Assembly (NCBI RefSeq): GCF_949628265.1
Contig: NC_088790.1
Span: 27,966,545 to 28,030,544, forward strand
Length of the DNA: 64,000 bases
Direction of reading: 5' to 3'
DNA from: Cloeon dipterum
Lineage: Eukaryota > Arthropoda > Insecta > Ephemeroptera > Baetidae
The position numbers and the translations under genes were made by a program. Every line of letters starts with the position of its first letter. The stretch's first letter is position 1. The notes beneath the pieces are model-generated. The model had not been told where the DNA came from, did no database searches, and saw nothing but the letters and a program-made list of their open reading frames with translations. Of the stretch, positions 5,489 through 54,200 are shown piece by piece.

Positions 5489-7576
5489 TCTGCGAATATT
5501 GCGAAAATCGCGAAAATTAATCCATCAGGGCATTATTCAGGTGAGTCACATTAGGGAGTGGCACCAGCGTGAGAAACGCGAGACTGTTTCTCGAATTTTT
5601 GCGCGAGGCGTGAGAGAAATATTGGGCCCAGCGGTGCGACACGGCGGCCCGAAAGCGATCTTACCTCTTCCGCTCAATTCCGTGAAGAATTCATGCAGAA
5701 TTGTGTATAGAAATTCGGTTGCGTCGCTGTCGCTACAGGTGTAACGAACAAACGGCAGGTTGCAAACAGTAAACAAGGGGCGGCGGAGAAACGAGAAACG
5801 CGCATTCCTTGCCGGTTATTCGCGGCCGGTTTTTTACCGTTTTGAAATCAGGCGGGTGGCAGTTTGTGTTTAAATAGAATTTTTCTCAGAAATTTCGCAT
5901 GCCGTTCTTTAAATATAGAAATGAGATTATGATTTACTCCTTCTCCTCATGAAAAGGAGAATAAATTATACATAAGCAGGGAAAATATTAACCGGTTAAA
6001 GATATGTATAGGTTAATCGATTTAATTTTGAAGAGGCACAACCCATCTATAATTATTGCAGATGAAAATTAATATGCTTTTTTGTGCAGAATACTCTCGA
6101 ATTGCAAATTTTGAATTTTAATTACTCCGCTTTGAGAGCAGAAAAATTTAACTATGTATTCCACTAATTATTATTTTTACTATTATTAAAAGTTTTTAAT
6201 GAAATATCCCATAAAATTATAATATTTGAGACAAAAAGCGATTATTTAAGTTCGTTGAGTAAGCACTTTGCCGAAACGTCTCAGTGTAAAAATGGAGGAG
6301 TAAAATTCATGCGACCCTTTCTTGGCGGATGAATACTGAATGAGTAAAAGGTAAAAGGCAGACTTTACAACGTGCAACCGCGCTCATAAATAGCTGCTTC
6401 CCCGGCGCTTTACAAAAAGCGAAGCAAGACGACGACGAGACTGTGTGTGTGCTGGAACTTTATTCCCAGAGAGCTTATCTCGATTGTGCGGCACAGCGTA
6501 TATAGTTTCCCCTATGTCTGGCAGTTTGTAAGGGGATGTATATAAATATGTTCCCTGTTTTGTGCAAGTGCTTTTGGGAAAACTGCGTAATTCAATTGCT
6601 GAACAAAAACGTTTTTTTTAATTAATTATTTAATGACTACAACAAGTATGATAGTTCAATATCTCTGGAAAAAAATGCAAATGTTCGGAAAATATTTCCT
6701 AAGTAAATTTCATGATATTGTTATATGTCTCTTTTAGCAAGGTGATTCTGATGTTGATTAATAAAAAACCTGTAAGAATTAAAAGATGTCGATCACTGTT
6801 GATTGCTAGAGAATACCTGATGTGAGACGCATCTGGGCATCATACAGAGAGGGACCGATTCTCACCGTCCTTTTCACATTTAAATAGATAAATGAGTTTC
6901 TTTTAGCTGTCAAAGCTGGTGTTTTTATAGCCCTGGTCGCCAAGGATAATTTATCATTGCACAGGTATTGAGTTTAATTTATTATTGATTTAATTACTTA
7001 TTTGATTGCATTATTTATAGCGATTTTTTTACTTGCTAAAATAGCATTAATAGGTACATTACAGCGTCTTCGTCATTTCCCAGGATGAATTTCGGGTCAG
7101 CCAGCGTTTTGCCATGTGAATCTTAGCGTATGAAGTTGGAAAAATTGCCGTTCAGGTTGGTCCACGGATATTTATTGACTTCCAAAGGCGTGTCTGACGT
7201 GCACCCTCGGAAAAGATTGTTCGTTCGTCCTTTTCCTCGTCCCAGATGTCCGTGCGTTAGAGGGATGCCATTTTCTTGCTAATTCGAAATTATGAGATTT
7301 TGCATCTTATTTTTAACCGGATCAAAATATATACTGACTGAAATTGGTTTTGCTTGGTTAGATGCACTGCTCATTAAATTCTTTGATCGAGGCCAATGAT
7401 AAACCGTAGGAATAGCAGAAAGACGCGGTTTCTTTAAAAGATATTTGGATAATAGTTCAATAATTTAAATTTATAACACTCCATTTTTCTATTTTGGAAC
7501 TAAATACAGTGGGTCCTGTCCTTACATAAAACTTTCTTCCACACCCCTCGTCAACATATCCATGATTTTCGATTAT
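5489..7576. other. Contactin upstream region, no further gene seen
   Basis: GC-richer sequence up to about 5870 could hold the Contactin promoter and a non-coding first exon. From 5870 to 7576 it is AT-rich with no open frame showing gene-like features; a CATAAATA box with GC-rich sequence after it lies near 6385. Confidence 0.4.
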
Positions 7577-7580
7577 TTAA

Positions 7581-8014
7581 AGAGGAATGATATTGGAAAA
7601 GCCAGGAAAATGCTTGTTGCCAATGCATAAACTCATCCCTTAGGATTCAGTTAAAGCCTAAATTGACCTAAGAAGCACTGTAATTTTTTGAGAAAATTGG
7701 CTGCAAAATTACCGTGATTTTCAAATGGTAATAGCTGTCTCCTTACTTGAAATCCGATTTAATTTCAAAACCAAGAGTTTCCCCAATAAGTGGCATACGC
7801 CGTTGGACAGATCTCGACGAGAGGAATCGAAATATGCCAAGAAAATATGTTCAAGCACTGTAAATTTTGGAGAAAATCGGCAAAATTTGAATTTTTATTG
7901 AAGAAAAGTCCTTTTTTACTATTGCAAATTGTTGAACAAATTGTTTATCGGTCAATTGTTTAAGGCATCCAACAATTTAAATAATTTTCAATTGTTGCCA
8001 AGTATCATTCCACT
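7581..8014 (-). mobile_element. TTAA-target MITE-like element, copy 1 (complete)
   Basis: 434 bp bounded by TTAA on both sides (7577-7580 and 8015-8018). Imperfect terminal inverted repeats: AGAGGAATGATATTGG at the left, and the complement of CCAAGTATCATTCCACT at the right. No coding capacity. It shares its whole length with copies near 21.7, 28.0, 31.9, 36.3, 44.3 and 61.8 kb. A TTAA duplication is typical of piggyBac or Kolobok transposons; which one is undecided. Confidence 0.8.
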
Positions 8015-8241
8015 TTAAAATGGGTTATGTATTTGAATAATGGTTGTAACTTTGAGAGCAATCCTACAATTGTTGGTGAAATTTTGCTTTTTGTCTAGCT
8101 GTATACACGCCCATCAGAGAAATGGCGCAACCATCAGAATTATTTCTCACGTTCGTCACGCTAGCGAAATCAGCGTTGCATCGTCCGAGTTTTGGTTCCA
8201 ACGGCGACGCATCCTGGAAAAATAGCGTTTTTATTTTTTTA

Positions 8242-8361
8242 TATCAACGGTTGCGACACAGTTTTGTACCGCCGTTTGTAGAGTTTCGCAGCTGTGATGG
8301 CGTTCGCTACCAAGGTCGGTGCCTTTTCCTGTCCGCACTGATACACTCGTCCATTCCCCCT
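8242..8361 (-). pseudogene. Decayed OBP terminal exon
   Basis: Reads YQCGQEKAPTLVANAI on the minus strand, close to YQCGQEKAPNLVANAI in the intact OBP exon at 10369-10260. Between GGAATGGACGAGTG and TATCAGTGCGG, 19 bases present in the intact exon are missing; this removes cysteine-5 context and shifts the frame. It lies downstream of a decayed CTL exon (9042-9196), the same order as in the intact gene, so both look like remains of a duplicated CTL-OBP unit. Confidence 0.75.
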
Positions 8362-9041
8362 GAGTCGAAATTTGATTGGTTTTTTAGTGCGAGAAAATAA
8401 AGTTTTATTAATTATTTGTAATAATCTAATTTTTTGTTTTAAAAAATACTCTGGAAAATCTGATATTGAGATCAACCGCTCTCCCCGAGACATTTGAGAA
8501 AGCACTGAAATTTCGTTTCATTTCAAAGAATTAGTTAAAATAATAAAAATTGCGGACAAATAAGCAGCTCACTAAACACCGAGAAAGCTACGCATTAAAT
8601 ATCTTCTGAAAATTATGATAATCTCGCGTGCATATTGACAAATCTATATCTAAAAATTAGATTTTCACGTGAAACGAAGAGCTATTAATTCCGGTAATGT
8701 AAAATAACCCAGGTCCCAAGAGTCAAGAGAGTGTGGGTCTGTTGGAAAGATAAATTTTCCATTTCCAGTCGTGCTCTAATCTCAAATTTGCATCTTTCAA
8801 AAAGGTCGTAGCATTGTCAAGTCCAGTGTAAAATGCCGTCTATTCATTCAATTAAAATCCAAAACACTAAAATAATACTGTTTTATACGTCTTTCATACA
8901 CTCTGAAGGACGTTGAGGAGCAAAGTAGGAGGGAGACTTGCCCTACAATTAACAAGCTTGAATACAAAATTCCATTACTATACATTCAAACCTTGCAATA
9001 AAAAATGTATTTATTAGAGCAGTTTCTGCCAGTAAGCACTA
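8362..9041. other. Gap between relic exons, nothing recognised
   Basis: AT-rich sequence between the decayed OBP and CTL exons. By position the other OBP exons of a duplicated unit should have been here, but I could not recognise any. Confidence 0.4.
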
Positions 9042-9196
9042 TACCGTAAGAGTTCTGTTTCTGGGGATGGACAAGTGCGCGCAGTTCTGTGCCCCATTCA
9101 CGTTTTCAGGCCCTGTGAACCGAATCACGAAACTGTACAAGCAAAATTCAAACACTTCAGCAGTCCGATATTTCAAGCTGTAAGGCCATGATTCGT
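9042..9196 (-). pseudogene. Decayed C-type lectin exon
   Basis: After an acceptor (TTAAACAG) it reads ESWPYSLKYRTAEVFEFCLY, then NCAHLSIPRNRT and a stop. The intact CTL1 exon at 11949-11705 reads EEWPYNFNYWTS..FQWCLYN..NCVHLSVPKNKNT. About 20 residues of the YWTS-to-FQWC segment are collapsed and the last cysteine pair is lost. It is most like CTL1 rather than CTL2 or CTL3. Confidence 0.75.
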
Positions 9197-9487
9197 CTGT
9201 TTAATATAAATAAATAGATGTAATCGTCCACTTTAAGGATTTTTTTCAAATTGTGTGTCGTGTTTCGCAGACACAGAAAATCGTCATCAGGTTCAACATG
9301 TACAGGATGTAAGTCATGTAAGTGATTTTTTGAATATCATGTCACATAAAGTCAAACAAAAGATGCAGTGTTGGAATATTTATTTATTATTCCAATTTTG
9401 AAATAAGGAAAGTAATGTAAAGCAACGCATATTGCCAAAACCACCCTTTTTTGTTGCTTGCTAATGGCATTATGCACCATTTTAAAT

Positions 9488-12400
9488 TTACAGTGGTTGT
9501 TCTTCACAAAGGGGGAAACTAGAACTTAGAGTGTCGTCATCCGTATTAAAATAAGTACTCGCTGGTGGTGTTTGAACATACATGGTCAATATATGGTTTT
9601 CAGGATATGCATTAATGTTTTGAATTGTCCACATAGAAAGATCAAACGCAGCTTTGGATGTGCACCAACGAAATCCGTTGTTTGCTGTTCCTTTCCTGGT
9701 AGCTGAAGTCCACATTTTAATCGGCTTAGTTCGGCCTCCTTATCAGAAAATTATATAATTATTCTTATTAACATATTATTTCACAATACCTAAAGGTGAC
9801 GCAACAATGCAGTTCAATTCTTCGACTGTTTCTAGGGAAACGATGTTTAAGCCATACTTGCAACACCAAGTTGCAGATTTCCGATATGGAGCCTATTAAT
9901 CGTGTTATATAAAAAAATAAGTTGAAGGAAGTTGTAATTATTACAACTATGTTCCCTAAGAGATAGCGTTTGCCACAAATATATATTATCGAAGCATCAT
10001 CTGGTGCTGAAAGCAATTAAACAAATTATTTCATCAATTAAGCGTCTCAATTTAATTTTTACTGCTGTTAGAGAGAAACATATTTCTGTAATAAGGCTGC
10101 AGAAAAATTGAAATGAATTTTAATTTATTAAATGAAAATATTTTCACACCTCCACAGCACAATCATAATCAGTTGCACATTCGCCTAGAGCTGGTTGCAA
10201 TGGAGATTTTTCCTGGAATACCAATTTCAGATGAAACAAGATTTTTACGACACACTTACTGCAGTTATGTTCAATTCCACGACCTTGATTGCATTCGCAA
10301 CCAGATTTGGGGCTTTCTCCTGTCCGCACTGATAAGCTAAAGCCGCCGTGTCACACTCGTCCATTCCCTCTGTGAATCAAATTAAATAGATCCACAGTTA
10401 TTAAAAAAAAAAATACTTAAGCCAGAGCACTCGTCCACAGCTTTGAGATCGCTCATCAGCTGCTCGTTGTTGTTCGGCGACAAAGTCTCTGCCAATTTTA
10501 TTAGCTGTTCGTCAACAACTCGACCGTTCAGGATCTAATTCGTCAAATTTTAATTGATTTTTGTGACATTTTAATAAATTAAAATTACTATTCCTCCACT
10601 CTCGCCCAAGCATTTTAAAAAGCACTGTGATAATTTTAAATAAAATTTAGCGCAGAGTTGCAACGCACAATACAATAACCTTTATCTTAACGTCGAACTT
10701 GGTACTGTTAAAAATATTTTCTTGTTCAACTGTTTAAATGTTACAATAATAAAATAAAAACAGCACAACATAATTATTTAATACCATCAGATATGTTGTA
10801 ATTCGAGGCACACTCGTCTTTGATTGCTTTTCCTCCACTAGTCGAGTTGCTCGTGTCTCTAACCTTAGAAAATATTTGTTTAAAATGGTTTGGGGAAGGC
10901 TATGAAATTAATACTTCGCAAATAAATGGCAGATTTGAGGTGCAATCCGCAGTCGAAAGAGTTGCGTTTGTGCTTCTGACATCAACAGCAATGCAGTTTT
11001 TGCCACTGTGAGGTTCGCCACGCGCCCAAATCGGCCCTCGGACCAGTTTGTTTGCAGCGCACCATCCGAACGCGCCGGGGCAGCCGTTATCTGTTCCTGA
11101 AGTCCAATATTTTCCGGACAGAGTTTCCTGGTCATATCCTACAATTTATATTTGAGTAGAGATGGGAGAGGATGAATAATTTGAACCTATTATTTGAGAC
11201 AAAACACTGTATTTATACTCCATGTCGACACTTAAAAGCTTCATCCCGAGCGCACAACAAGTCGCGACCGCTTCAGCCCACTGCAGTTAAAATTAATTTA
11301 GTATTTCACACAATTTATCAACAAAATTAAAAAATAATACCGTTTTACTAGCATTGCCGAACATGAAAATCCGATAATTCATACTTTTCCAAGACCCATA
11401 TTGAGGAGGATCTGTTTAATAAATGCGTTAAACCAGAACATATAGGATATGACCTGATTTTGAAAATGTACGGATGGTTCGTTTATACGCACTTGCTAGA
11501 AATTTAGAAACTTTGTCGCGTGCCAACGAGAACAATGAGTCCTTGAAGAGTCAATTTAAACTTAGTAAATTTTTGGTTAACAATATTTACATTTTTGCTG
11601 CATTTGGCACTGGGACAGGTTGGAGTAGAGCAAGGTGGGGCTGGAGTTGGTTGGCCCTGTTAATCATAATAAAAACCTTTTTTCAATTTAATTAAAACAC
11701 AGACCTTGCATGATAAAATAAATGTGTTACTGCAGCTCTTTTGAGTCAGCTCGGTTGTATTTTTATTTTTGGGAACAGACAAGTGCACGCAATTCATAGA
11801 AAATAAATTATTGGGGTGTCCAATAGCCCACATTGGGATGGCGTTGGTGAAAGTTCCAGGAGTGTTGTACAAACACCACTGAAAGGTATTATTGGAGAAA
11901 ATCTGGCGCGCTGACGTCCAGTAGTTGAAGTTGTAAGGCCACTCTTCATCTGATTTATCTTTCATAATTCAAGAATGGCGTAAGAAATTTAATTTATCAC
12001 ATTGCGTAATATTTTTAAAACAGTTGAATTTCTCCAAAGTTTCAAACGCTACTGGTTTCATTCCAATGCTGCAGCACCTCTTCACGTTAGTTTCCCATGT
12101 CACCTGATTTGTAAATTAAAAAACTATGTGTTTGAATTGTGATCCTAAAATACAATTGATTTTCCAAAAAGGTACAGCTCTCCGCAGATTTCCCTCCAGG
12201 CACCATACTTTTGTGCATCTATATATGGAATTAATTAAATCTAAAGTTAAAATAAAACTCAAAACTGGTACCTATAAGATTCGCACTAGCGTCAAAAAGA
12301 GACGCATTTCTAGCGCAAGTTAAATCCGAACAGTTATACAAGGACTATAGTAACAAAAGGCGATATCATTGTTTAACCAATATCGTTACATCAGACAATT

Positions 12401-13536
12401 TTACGGGCAGAGTAGTGGTTGTCGGTGCAGATTTGGTACTAATTGTACTAGTTTGAGTAGTTGACGGGGACATTAATGTTGAGCCACCACTCAAAAAGTT
12501 GCTATTCGATAAGGTGCCTGTAGAGGTGACAGTGGTTGAACTGGTTTGCGCCAAAACAGTCGTCTGCGTCAAAGCGGCATTTCTCAATGAAGTGCTTGTC
12601 AAGACTTTATTAGGCAATAGGGTGTTTGTCGAGGTAGTTGTTTTCGAAGCATCATTTGTAGAGCCTTTTAAGGGAAATTTTTAAATTAAAGTTAAAACGG
12701 ATGAAATGTCTTTTCGACTGGTGTAAACCATTCGACCATTGTAAAAAAAGTAAAAAAAACGCCCTACCACTTTTGGGGATTCCAATCGGTGAAGTGGGTG
12801 GCGTTGCATCTACAGCAGCAGTAATTTCAGCTTCTGAGCTTGGGGTTCCTCCTCCATTCATTAGATCAGTCGGAAAAACTGTTATTTCAGCTGGCTATAT
12901 TTAAACATTTTCTTCAATTAATTCCAAATCATAAAATAAAACTGAAAATCATCACAGCCTGTGACTTTGCATCAATTTGTGGGTCTAAATTGACATTTGC
13001 AGTGCTCTCAGGTGCTGCTGCAGCATCCGTCTTGGCGTTTTCCATTTTTTCCGTGTTACCTCCAGCAGTCTCGGCTCTGCTTACTCCAAGTGGCAATGTT
13101 TTAAAACGACTCGTCAAAGATACAGTCGGTTGTTTAATCAATGTGTGGTTTGCTTTTTTGTGGGACACATTTGTGCAAGACTTACGGCCGCAGCATCTTA
13201 TAATATAGTTCCGTTTATTGCCTGCAGTTTAACAATGGCTATTAAAAACACTTTGCGCTTTGCTAATTTACTTTACCTCTCAGTTTCTTCATTTCAACCT
13301 TTTGAAAACACAGGATTTTATTGACCATTTTGATTTGAGTTTGTTTTCAAAATATATTAATTTTTCTATTTTATAACTGTTAATCAGATTAATTGCATAA
13401 TCAAGCAGGCCTGTATTATCTGTTTTATTGAAAGGTGAAATGTGACAAAAGAATAACTCCAACTAACCTGTGAGGCGAGATTATCTAAAAGTGCGAGCGC
13501 AAAGAACACATAAATTCCCGTCCATAACAAGCTCAT
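9488..13536 (-). CDS. Secreted CTL-CTL-OBP-CTL chimeric protein
   Basis: Exons: 13536-13468, 13298-13277, 13221-12956, 12894-12768, 12664-12405, 12344-12272, 12218-12154, 12103-12022, 11949-11705, 11656-11591, 11560-11512, 11411-11341, 11280-11187, 11138-10915, 10863-10785, 10729-10680, 10624-10589, 10534-10417, 10369-10260, 10212-10150, 10096-10063, 10006-9948, 9892-9790, 9738-9488. All phases agree: 2616 nt, 871 residues. Signal peptide MSLLWTGIYVFFALALL; residues 24-248 mostly Ser/Thr/Ala-rich, mucin-like; CTL1 about 290-403; CTL2 about 455-571 (YWTSGTDNGCPGAFGWC, CTSNLPFICE); OBP 589-702; CTL3 about 745-866. No EPN or QPD sugar-binding motif is seen in any CTL, so calcium-dependent sugar binding is doubtful. 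Some donors are weak (GTGATG, GTTTTA, GTCTGT), so individual boundaries may move. The start was chosen because it begins the signal peptide; a longer in-frame Met exists upstream. Function unknown. Confidence 0.85.
10260..10863 (-). other. OBP (PBP/GOBP) domain within the chimeric gene
   Basis: Five exons encode all six conserved OBP cysteines at residues 589, 615, 619, 662, 671 and 680. Spacing is C1-x25-C2-x3-C3-x42-C4-x8-C5-x8-C6, the classic insect OBP pattern. Key stretches: DECASNYNISD, CFLKCLGESGGI, KAVDECSGLKGMDEC, DTAALAYQCGQEKAP. OBPs normally are stand-alone secreted proteins of about 120-150 residues that bind small hydrophobic ligands; here no separate signal peptide precedes the domain, and it is joined in phase to CTL2 (FICE, then VRDTS) and to a Cys-containing linker before CTL3. 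Confidence 0.9.
12405..12664 (-). other. Thr/Ser-rich mucin-like exon of the chimeric gene
   Basis: 87 residues dominated by Thr and Ser (for example TQTSTISTKSAPTTTTLP), expected to be heavily O-glycosylated. It separates the N-terminal Cys-containing segment (RCCGRKSC) from CTL1. Confidence 0.75.
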
Positions 13537-48253: not shown

Positions 48254-51200
48254 ATGGCCCCAGCACTGTTGTTATTTATGTCCAAGTCCAAGTACAGACG
48301 GAAAGATTGCTGGTGGACGCTGGGGTGTCTGCTGATGGCCCTGCTGGCGGCGGTCGACGGCCTCCACGGGGCTGGCAAGTGCGGCACCGAGTGCGTCAAC
48401 GGCTTCTGCGCCAACGGCACCTGCAACTGCTATGACGGCTGGCAGGGCCCCAATTGCCAGTTTTGCGGAGGAAAAGTCAGGTTCGTCGCACTCCAGATGC
48501 GTCCCTGGGGTTGATGACCTCCGCCCTTAGAGCCCTGGGAGCCCGTCAGTTGGCTCAAAGCCCCTGGAAATCCAGCGGCCTCCTCATTCGAGCTGCGGTT
48601 TTCTCTTCTGTTTTCTCGGGGGTGGACCCCTTTCTTTCTTTTGTGCAGAATTTAAAAAAAAAATTAGACAGCACTTTTTAGCTCTCAGGCCTCCTCAGTT
48701 ATTAACGGAAGAACTAATAGTGTAAAATCACCCAAAAAAAACTGACGATTTCGCCACCCCTATAACCAGCTGTCACCCTCGAACAGACAATAGTAATAAT
48801 TTCCGTCGTGTCCTCAGGTTGTCCGAGCCCTCAGGGTACATTCTGGACGGCCAGGGCAACTACTCGGTGGACGTCAAGTGCAGCTGGCTGGTGTCTAGCG
48901 GCACCCCGAACGCCACCATCCGCCTTCACCTGGAGGAATTCGCCACCGAGTGTGGCTGGGACCACCTCTACGTGTACGACGGCGACTCCGTTCGCTCGCC
49001 CTTGCTCGCTGTCTTCAGGTTGGTTGCGCCGGACAAAGGTTGATGATGTTTATTGATTTATTTGTGTTGATTCAGTGGGCTCATGTACAAAGACGATTAT
49101 CGGGTGCGCCGAGTACCAGAAGTGGTGGCCAAGTCGGGCTCTGCTCTCCTGCATTTCTACAGCGACGTGGCTTACAACATGACAGGGTTTAATATTTCTT
49201 ACAGGTGTGTAGTTCATTCTGTTTTCTACATTTAAAAATAATTATTATTATTGTAATTTCTAATTTTCCCTCTGCATTTCAGGCTAAACTCTTGTCCGTC
49301 CCGGTTTTCGGACAGTCCGTGCAGCGGACACGGCGTGTGCATCGACGGCTCGTGCACCTGCGACGCGCTCTACATCGGCGACGCGTGCGAGATACCTGTG
49401 TGTCCGAACGACTGCTCTGGCAAGGGCCAGTGCAACCGCGAGAAGCACCGGTGCGAGTGCTGGGGTGACGCCAGGGGTGACGACTGCTCGCAGTCTGCTG
49501 AGAAGGGTTTCTGGGAACTGCTGCAGCCCAAGGCCTTTGTGCCGGAGGGCTCGGCCTCGCACGGGGTCGTCGTGTGGCGCGACTCGCTCTACGTCGTTGG
49601 AGGAGAGTCGTACGAGAAGGCCAAGCTTATGTACGTCTACGATTTTACAGGTAGGCAGACTTATGTTTTCTCCTCCTGCAATGTTGATTTAATTTAAAAT
49701 TAAATGCCTTCCCACCTGAATTAATAGAGTTGTAAAATTTAGGGAGCTTTAATCGCGGAATTTAAAGCTTTCAGTCGTGAAATATTTCCACAATTTTCAT
49801 AAAATAATCATTATTTTGCGCAAATTGACATTTTGAAATTAATATTGGAATAATTATAACCTGCTCTATGGGAAAAAGATTTAAAATAAATGGAAAAACA
49901 ATTTTTTAAATTTAAATTGTAGCGAAAAGCGTTACAAAATTACCGCTTGCTTTTCAAAATAGCTTTGTAAATTTCCCAGCCCTACAAATCCTCCTTGTAA
50001 CCTCCGTTAATTATTAATTATTTTCCAAATCCACAGGAAATATTTGGGAAACTGTCCACATCAATAGCAAGAATGTTCCACAGTCCAGATACGGTCATTC
50101 AACAGTGATATTTGGAGTGAGTTCTTCTGCCCGCCAAAATTAAAACATTCAGAACACGTTGTCATTCATTTTTCAGGACAAAATCTTTATGTATGGTGGA
50201 GTAGACGTGAGTGGTCACGTTTCGGCCGAGCTTTGGGCTTTTGACATCAGCGCCAACGCCTGGGAAAATATAACCGTCCGGGCTGAGTCATGTACGCATC
50301 AGAAACTCAATCCAAAACTGCCCTGTGGTGAGTTTGGCGTAATTATTCCGTTCGATTTGCATTATTTCGAGACTTTTGCAGGTCCTCTGAGATCCACCGG
50401 GCACACCGCAACCGTGGTGTCTAGTAAAGTGAAGAAGAGCGAGAAAATGATTGTGATTTTCGGTCACTCGCCCATCTACGGCTACCTAAACACAGTGCAA
50501 GAGTACAACTTTGGCACTCGGACCTGGCAAGTGGTGGCCACTAAAGGTTTCCCTGTCAAGGGTGGCTACGGACACTCGTCTGTGTACGACGGAGTGTCCC
50601 AGCGAATCTACGTCTACGGTGGATACGTGTCAGAAAGCGCCTCCACCGCGTTGCTCACCAACAAACTCTTCTCATACGATCCGTTCACAAAGACATGGTA
50701 CGTGTTCAACTTTAAAAAAAAAATAGACTCACCTTGTTGCCCTTGAAAATGGGAAATTGATTCAATCTTGCTTTTTGCATGGAGACGTAAATGAACTGCA
50801 ATCACATTCATACTGTTTAAATTGTTGTGCATTGTGGCAATAAGTGCTGCACGTCACCAGACAGTAAACAAAGCAACCTGATAACATGCAAAAATACATC
50901 TAGTTGTGAAGGTCAAGATTCATGACTCATGAGAAGGGTTGGAAATTTATGGCAAACGACTTTTTTTCTTTTAGACGCGACATGAGCGCACAATTTTAAG
51001 TCTTGAGATTAATAGACAAGTCTCAATTAAAAATTGTTGCTGAAAACCATCAAAGTCAGTTGCAAAGCGAGACAAATATTTTACGAAACGCAGAAAATGA
51101 TATCGTCCTGGTCCCGATAAAATTGCGCCACGTTCAACAAACACCCAAATTTTCATTTTCGAATTGATTGTTGACCTTTTCTTGCAACAAGGAAATTCGC

Positions 51201-54200
51201 GTTTGGTTGTTGAAAGTTGCGCAACTTTAACGGGACCAGGACGCGATTTTTTTAGAGATTATAATATTATTTTCTAATGAATTAATAATATTTTTTGCTT
51301 TTTGATATCTGTTGGTTAATAGATGTAGGAAAAGGCAATTTTATGATAAGATTTAATTAATTCGGCTGCTCTTATTCGTCTATTCAATATGAGATGTGGT
51401 CTAAACATCAAAATTTTCTCGTTGTTTATCGAAAAATATAATTTCAAGAGGAATTCAACTTAGAAAAAGATCTTAAGAAAAGTTCCAAGCCAAGAAAAAT
51501 TCCTGGCTGTGGTTAATTTTCGTCAAAAATGATTGAAATTCTCCGCTGAATCCATCCAAAGTAGATCTCAATTCCTTTGATCGACAAAAACCTGAAAAAT
51601 AATTGAAATTGTGGCAAAATATAATTTTTGTGCCTAGTCAACTGTACATTTAACAAAAAAATACCTTCATATCAAAGGAATCTAAACTCAAATTGACTCT
51701 TTTTCTCCTTTGTGCTCAGGAACCTTCTCATGTCTGCCCCGTCCGCAAGATTTTTGCATTCAGCTGTCATCTCGCGTGGTCTGATGCTTGTGTTTGGTGG
51801 CAACACGCACAACGACACCGCCTTCAGCCACGGTGCCAAGTGTTACTCGCATGACTTCCTCGCCTACGATCTCGCCTGCGACACCTGGTCCGCCCTGCCG
51901 ACTCCAGCCCTCTCGAGAACCGACCTGAGTCGTTACGGGCACTCATCAGTGATGTTTGACGGTGCTCTCTACATTTACGGCGGCTTTGACGGACAGTTCA
52001 GGTATGATATTTTAAAACAAAAGAAATAAATAAAATGTTTTTGTTCATCCAATTTAGAAATGATAAATTAAATCAAAGCCGGTTAAATAATTTATTTTCA
52101 TGTCAATTTCAAATTTGTAATTATCTGATCGAATCCATCCTTCAGGTCAGATCTGCTGAAGTTCACGCCAGGAAAGTGCAGCGTTCTGAATGACGAGGGA
52201 CTGTGCAGTCAAGGCAGACCGGGAGTCAAGTGCGTGTGGAGCGAGGAAAACGCCTCCTGCGAGATCTCCGGCCAGGGGGCTGGCCTTGGAAAGGCGCAGT
52301 GCTCTACCATTTTTGACAACGGCCGATCTGAAATCTGCTCCATGCTTGACAACTGCGGTGCTTGCGTGCACACAGCTCACTCGTGCATTTGGTGCGGAGG
52401 CTCGCAGGGAAGCTGCAACCACCAGCGCTGCAAGGAATCAAATCAGAAGGTAGGTTTTAAATTACCAGAGTTTTTTAAACAAATAATCGGCGTCATTTCT
52501 AATTTTAATATTTGTCCTTTCTTTTTTACAGGCGATAACAAACATTGAGCAGTGTGAGACGCAAGACAGCGGATCTTGTTTGCAACTGCACAACTGTCAG
52601 GCGTGTGGAACAAACCCCAAGTGCAGATGGGAGTTTGAGAATCGCTGCAAATCCATCGGTAGGCCGTTTCGTAATATTGAATTGTTGCAATAAGTCTCGT
52701 TTTCCAGTGTCAGGGAATGTGACGAGTGAGGCTGGTGCAGTCGAAATTCCTGGCTGTCTTAACACGTGCGCTCAGTTCTCGTCATGCCAGAACTGTACGC
52801 AGGAGGAATGTATTTGGTGCCAAAACGAGGCAAGATGCGTCAACAAAAACGCGTACACGGCCTCCTTCCCTTACGGTCAGTGCAGGGAGTGGACAACCCA
52901 TATCACAAAGTGCCGGCCCTCAAATGGTAGTTTCAATTAACTGAATTTAATAATTCTTTTTTTTTACTAAACATCATTCTAATTTAATCAGCAGGGGAAG
53001 CCGAATGTTCTTTCTACGCAACCTGCGAAGAGTGCAGGGTGGATCCAGCTTGCGGCTGGTGCGACGACGGCTCTGGAACGGGTCTGGGAAAGTGTCTGCG
53101 TGGAGGAAATCACAGGCCAGATGACCCTTCCATGTGCCCCTCGGATTCTTGGTTCTTCACTAGATGCCCTGGTGAGTTATCAAAGTTGAAATTGAATCGC
53201 AACTGGAGCTGTAATTTTCACCTCAAAGTTTGTTTGTTTGTGCATGCTATAAGTTTGAGCAAATAGTCTGATTAAAAATCCTTACAAAACATCATTATTG
53301 CGTAGAGGTACAAAATTGCTAAACTGACCACAGGTGCTCATTAAAACTGACCAAGTTTTCAATAATTTTATAATTATTGACCTCGACTCGAAAAACTGTC
53401 AGAGATAAATTTTTGGAGAAATTGAGGCAGCAAATAATGGCAATTTAAAAGGAAAAATCTGCAAGGTAGAGGAAATTTTGACCACTCAGACCGCAAATTT
53501 CACATTGGAAATTTAGAATAAATTCATTTATTGCATTTTTTGCGCAAGAAATTGAAAATAAATGTAAAATTGATCTTTGGAATAGCAAAAAGAATAACGA
53601 GACATTTGTAAATGTTGAAATTGTTGGATCCAAATCATAAAATTGTGCTAGTATTCCAGATTATTTATCTTTTTTGCGTTTTTTTTTGTATCTAGTCATT
53701 GTAAGGTGCAATTCAGATCAAGGCGTTTCTAACTCTTTCCTCCAAATCACAGCTTGCCAGTGCAACGGACACAGCACCTGCGGCAACGGCTCAAGCCAGT
53801 GCACGCAGCCGTGCAACAATTTAACCCAAGGAATGCACTGCGAACGCTGCGTTCCCGGCTACTACGGCAACCCCGTCAACGGCGGCAAGTGCACGCGTGA
53901 GTTCATTCGCGTTTTGAGTTTTTATCTCGACTATAAAACTTTCATTCCTTGCGATCAGCGTGCCACTGCAACAACCAGGGCACCCAGTGCCACCCTGAGA
54001 CAGGCAAGTGCTACTGCACCACGAAGGGAATCACTGGCGACCACTGCGACAAATGCGACACGACCAACCACTACTCTGGCGATCCAGCCAATGGATCTTG
54101 TTTTTGTGAGTTTATTGATAATTAGTTCTTTTGCAGTATTGTTTTACGGCTGGGTTTGGTTTCAGATGATTTGACCATTGACTACCAGTTCACCTTCAAT

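Follow-up and report, generated by a model that had tools for sequence, protein, structure and literature searches.

A Cloeon dipterum gene family with an odorant-binding protein domain embedded between C-type lectin-like modules

Odorant-binding proteins (OBPs) are textbook small free carriers. A 64,000-nucleotide stretch of the genome of the mayfly Cloeon dipterum (contig NC_088790.1, positions 27,966,545 to 28,030,544; the whole stretch is called the window here) raises the question of whether such a domain can also form part of a much longer protein. A sequence-only reading of the minus strand at 13536-9488 had proposed a single secreted chimera, in which an OBP is flanked by C-type lectin (CTL) domains in the order CTL-CTL-OBP-CTL. 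Is this locus one gene or a row of neighbours, and what could its product do? The gene structure and its paralogs indicate that the locus is, almost certainly, one gene of a large family whose members start with a signal peptide and a mucin-like stretch and carry an OBP domain between C-type lectin-like modules.

The strand was read in three frames, and exons were set by splice sites and frame. This gave one gene with 24 exons and phase agreement at all joins, on the strand and coordinates of the sequence-only reading; the coding sequence measures 2637 nt and encodes 878 amino acids, rather than the 871 residues counted there. The sole stop codon lies at its end and none is internal. Spliced protein-to-DNA alignment using the model protein as a query recovered the 22 exons downstream of the N-terminal part identically. 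The encoded protein consists of a signal peptide, the product of a 22-nt microexon, a Ser/Thr-rich stretch, CTL1, CTL2, a six-cysteine OBP and CTL3. Both joins on which the earlier proposal depended are present in phase 0: the CTL2-OBP join (11138-10915/10863-10785) spans an intron of 51 bp (10914-10864) and the OBP-linker join (10369-10260/10212-10150) an intron of 47 bp (10259-10213). The features are listed below by window position; A3, A4 and A5 are profiles built from the CTL1, CTL3 and OBP domains of the family.

13468..13536, minus strand: exon 1, start codon and signal peptide MSLLWTGIYVFFALALLDNLASQ (gene model; first exons of paralogs).
13277..13298, minus strand: exon 2, microexon encoding VEMKKLR and the first base of a Gly codon (five of 11 paralogs).
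12405..13221, minus strand: exons 3-5 (13221-12956, 12894-12768, 12664-12405), RNYIIRCCGRKSC motif followed by the Ser/Thr/Pro-rich (42%), mucin-like stretch.
11705..12344, minus strand: exons 6-9 (12344-12272, 12218-12154, 12103-12001, 11949-11705), CTL1, divergent C-type lectin-like (profile A3).
11591..11656, minus strand: exon 10, Pro/Cys-rich linker between CTL1 and CTL2 (gene model).
10915..11541, minus strand: exons 11-14 (11541-11493, 11411-11341, 11280-11187, 11138-10915), CTL2 (PF00059).
10864..10914, minus strand: 51-bp phase-0 intron between CTL2 and the OBP (absent in six paralogs named below).
10260..10863, minus strand: exons 15-19 (10863-10785, 10729-10680, 10624-10589, 10534-10417, 10369-10260), six-cysteine OBP block (PF01395, profile A5).
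9488..10212, minus strand: exons 20-24 (10212-10150, 10096-10063, 10006-9948, 9892-9790, 9738-9488), divergent CTL3 and stop codon (profile A4).
About 7129..9200, minus strand: degraded tandem copy outside the working gene, with remnants of CTL1, CTL2, OBP and CTL3 in the same order and broken frames.

The join between CTL2 and the OBP decides whether this model describes one gene. The sequence-only reading had named a stop between CTL2 and the OBP, or an independent start before the OBP, as signs of separate genes. Neither was found: the frame is open, and the first OBP exon is phase-matched and contains no in-frame Met codon. The intron at this join is missing in six paralogous loci (L039, L040, L042, L043, L049 and L052), where a single exon continues from the core of CTL2 past its last Cys-Glu into the first OBP helix; lectin and OBP are therefore joined there without any inference about splicing. 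In L043, this exon forms a stop-free frame of 172 aa, in which Pfam recognises the lectin part and not the short OBP start.

The same arrangement was found throughout the genome searched, which is the window's own (190 Mb, 10 contigs). Using the L052 join exon as a query, at least 103 places among the best 150 candidates span the CTL2-OBP join in one stop-free frame; 107 matches extended as far as the OBP and were used, and two of these contained a stop. Searches with the OBP block and with CTL1-CTL2 returned 181 and 151 matches, respectively. A further OBP search also gave 181 matches, and each of the 85 taken from it, those lying on the exon that carries cysteines C2 to C4, has a join match 244-1242 bp upstream on the same strand. 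Similarly, matches to the C-terminal OBP exon (query start at 75 or later, n = 89) were compared with selected CTL2 matches, and for 77 of them a CTL2 match lies on the same strand, 384-1552 bp upstream; the degraded window copy and L041 are among the 12 without a partner. The six intron-less loci, the L043 frame and the stop-free spans, together with the mere 51 and 47 bp separating the OBP exons from CTL2 and CTL3, leave next to no chance that neighbouring separate CTL, OBP and CTL genes were wrongly joined, even though in insects the two kinds of domain normally occur in different proteins; for the CTL2-OBP join, that reading is refuted at sequence level. At the other end of the block, agreement in phase, the short intron and conservation in paralogs indicate that the OBP and CTL3 also belong to one gene.

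To describe the family, 20 paralog loci were taken from the genome and the window protein was aligned to each. In 16 of them, the alignment covers half or more of each of CTL1, CTL2, OBP and CTL3, in this order and free of stops; a mechanical count gave 17, from which L046 was discounted (CTL1 part 55% covered at 34% identity, odd exons). CTL3 is also incomplete in L039, L040 and L050. The paralog most like the window gene, L033, is identical to it at 761 of 848 aligned positions, and the least similar, L050, at 271 of 836. These paralogs reject the notion of a one-off chimera or an annotation accident, and chance is excluded because frame, intron phases and order are conserved among them. Collectively, the alignments indicate that the chimera represents a large gene family with tandem clusters and no single oddity. 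The degraded copy next to the window gene was traced by tblastn pieces for CTL1, OBP and CTL3, its CTL2 remnant coming from frame reading only.

Some members of the family deserve separate mention. L048 (contig C1, 39042800-39052700, plus strand) has a lone CTL1 stop in an otherwise intact copy, as would fit a recent loss or a sequence error. L052 (contig C1, 40373200-40376500, minus strand) is a distant member with a further lectin domain upstream of CTL1, seen by frame reading and one profile match; the number of lectin modules therefore varies. A very divergent lectin-OBP join is found in L053 (contig C4, 16091200-16092400, minus strand). On contig C2, four lectin matches on the minus strand (6339498, 6352950, 6366483 and 6380016) have identical scores and equal stop numbers and lie about 13.5 kb apart, possibly as the product of recent tandem duplication of a longer unit.

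The identity of the domains was examined with Pfam and with family profiles. Both Pfam families that the sequence-only reading expected in one protein were found. CTL2 matches PF00059 (Lectin_C, residues 470-578) with an E-value of 4.5e-9 and 37.5 bits against a cut-off of 22.6, and the OBP matches PF01395 (PBP_GOBP, residues 590-690) with an E-value of 5.8e-8 and 33.3 bits against a cut-off of 22. The spacing of its cysteines is classic (C-x25-C-x3-C-x42-C-x8-C-x8-C), in line with the complete six-cysteine OBP domain reported between the lectins. PF01395 matches 12 of 12 aligned family OBPs at E up to 1 (best 1.8e-10). Profile A5, made from 13 OBP sequences with L042 and L049 left out and L052 added, gave 27 matches in the PDB at E up to 0.01, all of them odorant- or pheromone-binding proteins or bare mosquito gene names (AGAP, AAEL). 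The six cysteines are invariant in the 12 members of A5 and all present in 18 of the 20 loci; in L037 the C4 position falls on an Ala at a doubtful splice, and L041 is degraded. The OBP domain is internal to the 878-aa protein and is not a small, free, single-domain secreted carrier.

CTL1 and CTL3 were recognised through the family. Profile A3, built from 11 of 13 CTL1 sequences (L045 and L048 left out), matches the E-selectin lectin domain (E 6.5e-6), CD209-type lectins and mosGCTL-1 (E 8.7e-5); weak matches to receptor kinases and antibodies, which are unrelated, begin at E 0.027. Profile A4, built from 11 of 13 CTL3 sequences (L040 and L050 left out, start trimmed), matches mosGCTL-6 (E 0.0014) and other lectins more weakly. 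Comparison of A4 with A3 by hhalign gave a probability of 97.7 across 87 columns. At E up to 1, PF00059 matches CTL1 in five of 11 members (best 2.9e-4) and CTL3 in four of 11 (best 2.8e-3). These results indicate that CTL1 and CTL3 are divergent C-type lectin domains, visible by profiles or in some family members. NCBIfam gave chance-level matches only.

The N-terminal part depends on the microexon. A direct splice from exon 1 to exon 3 was rejected, as the phases clash (exon 1 ends in phase 0 and the next exon needs phase 1); the 22-nt microexon at 13298-13277 (AG|22 nt|GT) restores the phase between them. A 22-nt microexon of related sequence is present in five of the 11 paralogs compared (L032, L033, L034, L038 and L045), although in L034 the use of a different acceptor gives a 31-nt form with a slightly higher score. 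L047 has a 34-nt microexon at the corresponding place, and no 22-nt microexon with both splice signals was found there in L036, L042, L043, L044 and L048. Hydrophobic first exons ending in CAG|GT, like exon 1, were found in L032, L033, L034, L036, L038, L044, L045 and L047. Exon 1 holds the most hydrophobic 19-residue stretch of the protein; past residue 25 no mean exceeds 1.21, and the same scan of the 878 residues found no second strongly hydrophobic segment. The structural part of the sequence-only reading, a single secreted chimera, is supported. The N-terminal stretch consists of 42% Ser, Thr and Pro, and the protein carries 15 N-glycosylation sequons. Past the stop codon, AATAAA occurs at 9383-9388 and 9379-9384, which is indecisive since the window contains 253 copies, and a bacterial-type promoter scan of 9300-9500 gave nothing decisive.

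How did the family arise, and under which constraint does it evolve? Pairwise Nei-Gojobori ratios of nonsynonymous to synonymous substitution (dN/dS) were calculated between the window gene and six of the 20 loci. They are 0.06-0.17 for the OBP block (computable in five of the six comparisons), 0.10-0.16 for CTL1, 0.12-0.38 for the linker and CTL2, 0.17-0.54 for CTL3, 0.23-0.43 for the N-terminal stretch and 0.12-0.31 for the 27-residue join; all are rough because several dS values exceed 1, and all regions computed stay below 1. Mean distances to the window gene across 18 paralogs (L041 and L046 left out) are 0.34 for the OBP, 0.41 for CTL1, 0.41 for CTL2, 0.48 for CTL3 and 0.62 for the N-terminal stretch. 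Over these 19 genes, correlations between the distance matrices of the four domains (CTL1, CTL2, OBP and CTL3) have r of 0.89-0.95, and none of 999 permutations reached the observed value for any pair; the parts were therefore inherited together.

The phase-0 introns on both sides of the OBP make it a symmetric block, which could be inserted without a frame shift. This is the pattern that exon shuffling into a multi-lectin gene would be expected to leave, and the lectin modules before and after the OBP share a profile. The simplest inference is that a multi-lectin gene took up an OBP exon block with phase-0 ends between its second and third lectin modules, after which the family would have spread by tandem duplication. 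L053 was considered as a CTL-only ancestor and rejected, since it carries an OBP directly after its CTL. In the genome, no lectin-only relative or donor OBP was identified. The one stand-alone OBP available as a control, L051, was the single PF01395 match at E up to 0.01 in a six-frame search, which misses OBPs split over short exons and thus does not count stand-alone OBPs. L051 has two stops inside that match, no significant CTL match within 3.4 kb and an E-value of only 0.022 with the family OBP profile, and is a weak control.

As to function, we tentatively propose, at a little under even confidence, a tethered ligand carrier. The protein would be secreted and glycosylated; its lectin modules and mucin stretch would anchor it in extracellular matrix, mucus or the cuticle surface, and the OBP pocket would thereby stay in place on a wet surface and capture small hydrophobic molecules there. 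Taken as a whole, the explanation that combines an embedded-OBP family, an origin by insertion and a tethered carrier is, in our judgement, slightly favoured as the best account of these sequences.

Several observations weigh against this account. CTL1 and CTL3 of the window gene have no single-sequence Pfam match. C-type lectins carry Ca2+/sugar motifs, EPN or QPD and WND; by reading, these are not intact here, with HPN in CTL1, EPH in CTL2 and WND in neither. The composition of the family is not uniform: CTL1 is interrupted by one stop in L048, no credible CTL1 is seen in L046, L041 is degraded, and in L035 the alignment covers 29% of CTL3, the fetched stretch ending soon after. In the short stretches covered of L052 and L053, no CTL3 was shown downstream; the 1.2 kb of L053 gave no significant CTL3 match. 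Lastly, the OBP is the most conserved domain by mean distance, and its dN/dS is the lowest of the regions in every computable comparison but that with L045 (four of five), contrary to what would be predicted for a repertoire of different odorant pockets. Glycan binding is uncertain because the CTL1 and CTL2 motifs are not intact, and the ligand of the lectins may be protein, chitin or another target rather than a Ca2+-dependent sugar. The conservation of the OBP speaks for a shared cargo, with diversity of recognition left to the lectins and the mucin-like stretch.

OBP conservation therefore leaves room for an immune or mucosal role. A diversified recognition family, in which lectins bind microbial or mucus surfaces and the OBP serves as a shared lipid-sensing or structural part, would fit a large family in tandem clusters in which variation is greater in the lectin modules and mucin stretch than in the OBP, CTL3 reaching a dN/dS of 0.54. 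Set against the altered sugar motifs and the dN/dS below 1 in each region computed, we consider this unlikely, at roughly one chance in a few. More doubtful still is a secreted product with a structural or reproductive task, such as an egg coat, moulting fluid, an adhesive or saliva, in which the two domain types would cross-link or carry: the signal peptide, mucin-like stretch and many cysteines and sequons would suit it, but the six-cysteine frame kept in 18 of 20 loci suggests a working fold. Of these readings, the tethered carrier is the most likely.

Elsewhere in the window, frames of an attractin-like gene lie on the plus strand at 50144-54174, with an attractin/LZTR1 beta-propeller (PF24981, E 5.5e-51) at 50144-50746 and a laminin/attractin EGF domain (PF24973, E 3.2e-17) at 53641-54174, both on the plus strand.

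The family bears on how the OBPs of this species are counted. The accessible part of the C. dipterum genome paper reports 191 OBP genes in a 180-Mb genome, with 82 of 167 OBPs expressed in gills, 25 gill-specific, and OBPs in gill sensory cells (PMC7250882). The word "lectin" is absent from its main text, and the genes are treated as OBPs (PMC7250882). The chimeras may make up much of these 191 genes, and at least 103 in-frame OBP-lectin joins change what an OBP gene count can mean. It is conceivable, at somewhat less than even odds, that most OBP domains of this genome are parts of lectin-OBP chimeras and that the C. dipterum expansion, including the OBPs of gill sensory cells, consists of surface-anchored lectin-OBP proteins; if true, odorant capture would be tethered, as suited to aquatic life. 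The family may bear on the proposal of chemosensory mayfly gills, which was based on the many OBPs expressed there. It is also a clear candidate for exon shuffling making a new protein class, and its partner domains suggest a site of action, which makes the role of non-olfactory OBPs testable.

The sequence-only reading knew of no described protein with the order CTL-CTL-OBP-CTL, and this stands uncontradicted by searches of open-access papers, which are not the whole literature. Judged by title and start of abstract, none of the open-access papers that these searches brought up is about a lectin-OBP fusion, most subscription journals being outside this scope; automatic annotations of such proteins may exist among InterPro domain architectures. 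The available portion of the work on Parafronurus youi gives 10 OBPs, names "Dimer" OBPs as a class and leaves lectins unmentioned (PMC13205551), and lacewing venom OBPs are not described as lectin-fused in the accessible sections of their report (PMC12758981).

Among known systems, the reported C. dipterum expansion resembles the present case in that a great many OBPs are found in a small genome, of 180 Mb in that paper (PMC7250882) and of 190 Mb here. With classic six-cysteine insect OBPs (PF01395), the window gene shares the six cysteines, their spacing and the Pfam and PDB profile matches, and differs from them in that the OBP lies mid-protein in 878 aa without a start codon or signal peptide of its own. 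Multi-CTL immulectin-type proteins exist among insect C-type lectins. With this group (PF00059, mosquito mosGCTL) the protein has in common a Pfam-level CTL2 and a CTL1 and CTL3 that match lectin structures by profile; it differs by the OBP between modules 2 and 3 and by the EPN/QPD and WND motifs not being intact in CTL1 and CTL2. In "Dimer" OBPs the second domain is another OBP. They resemble the family described here in having more than one domain in an OBP-bearing protein, whereas the partners of the OBP here are lectins and a mucin-like stretch.

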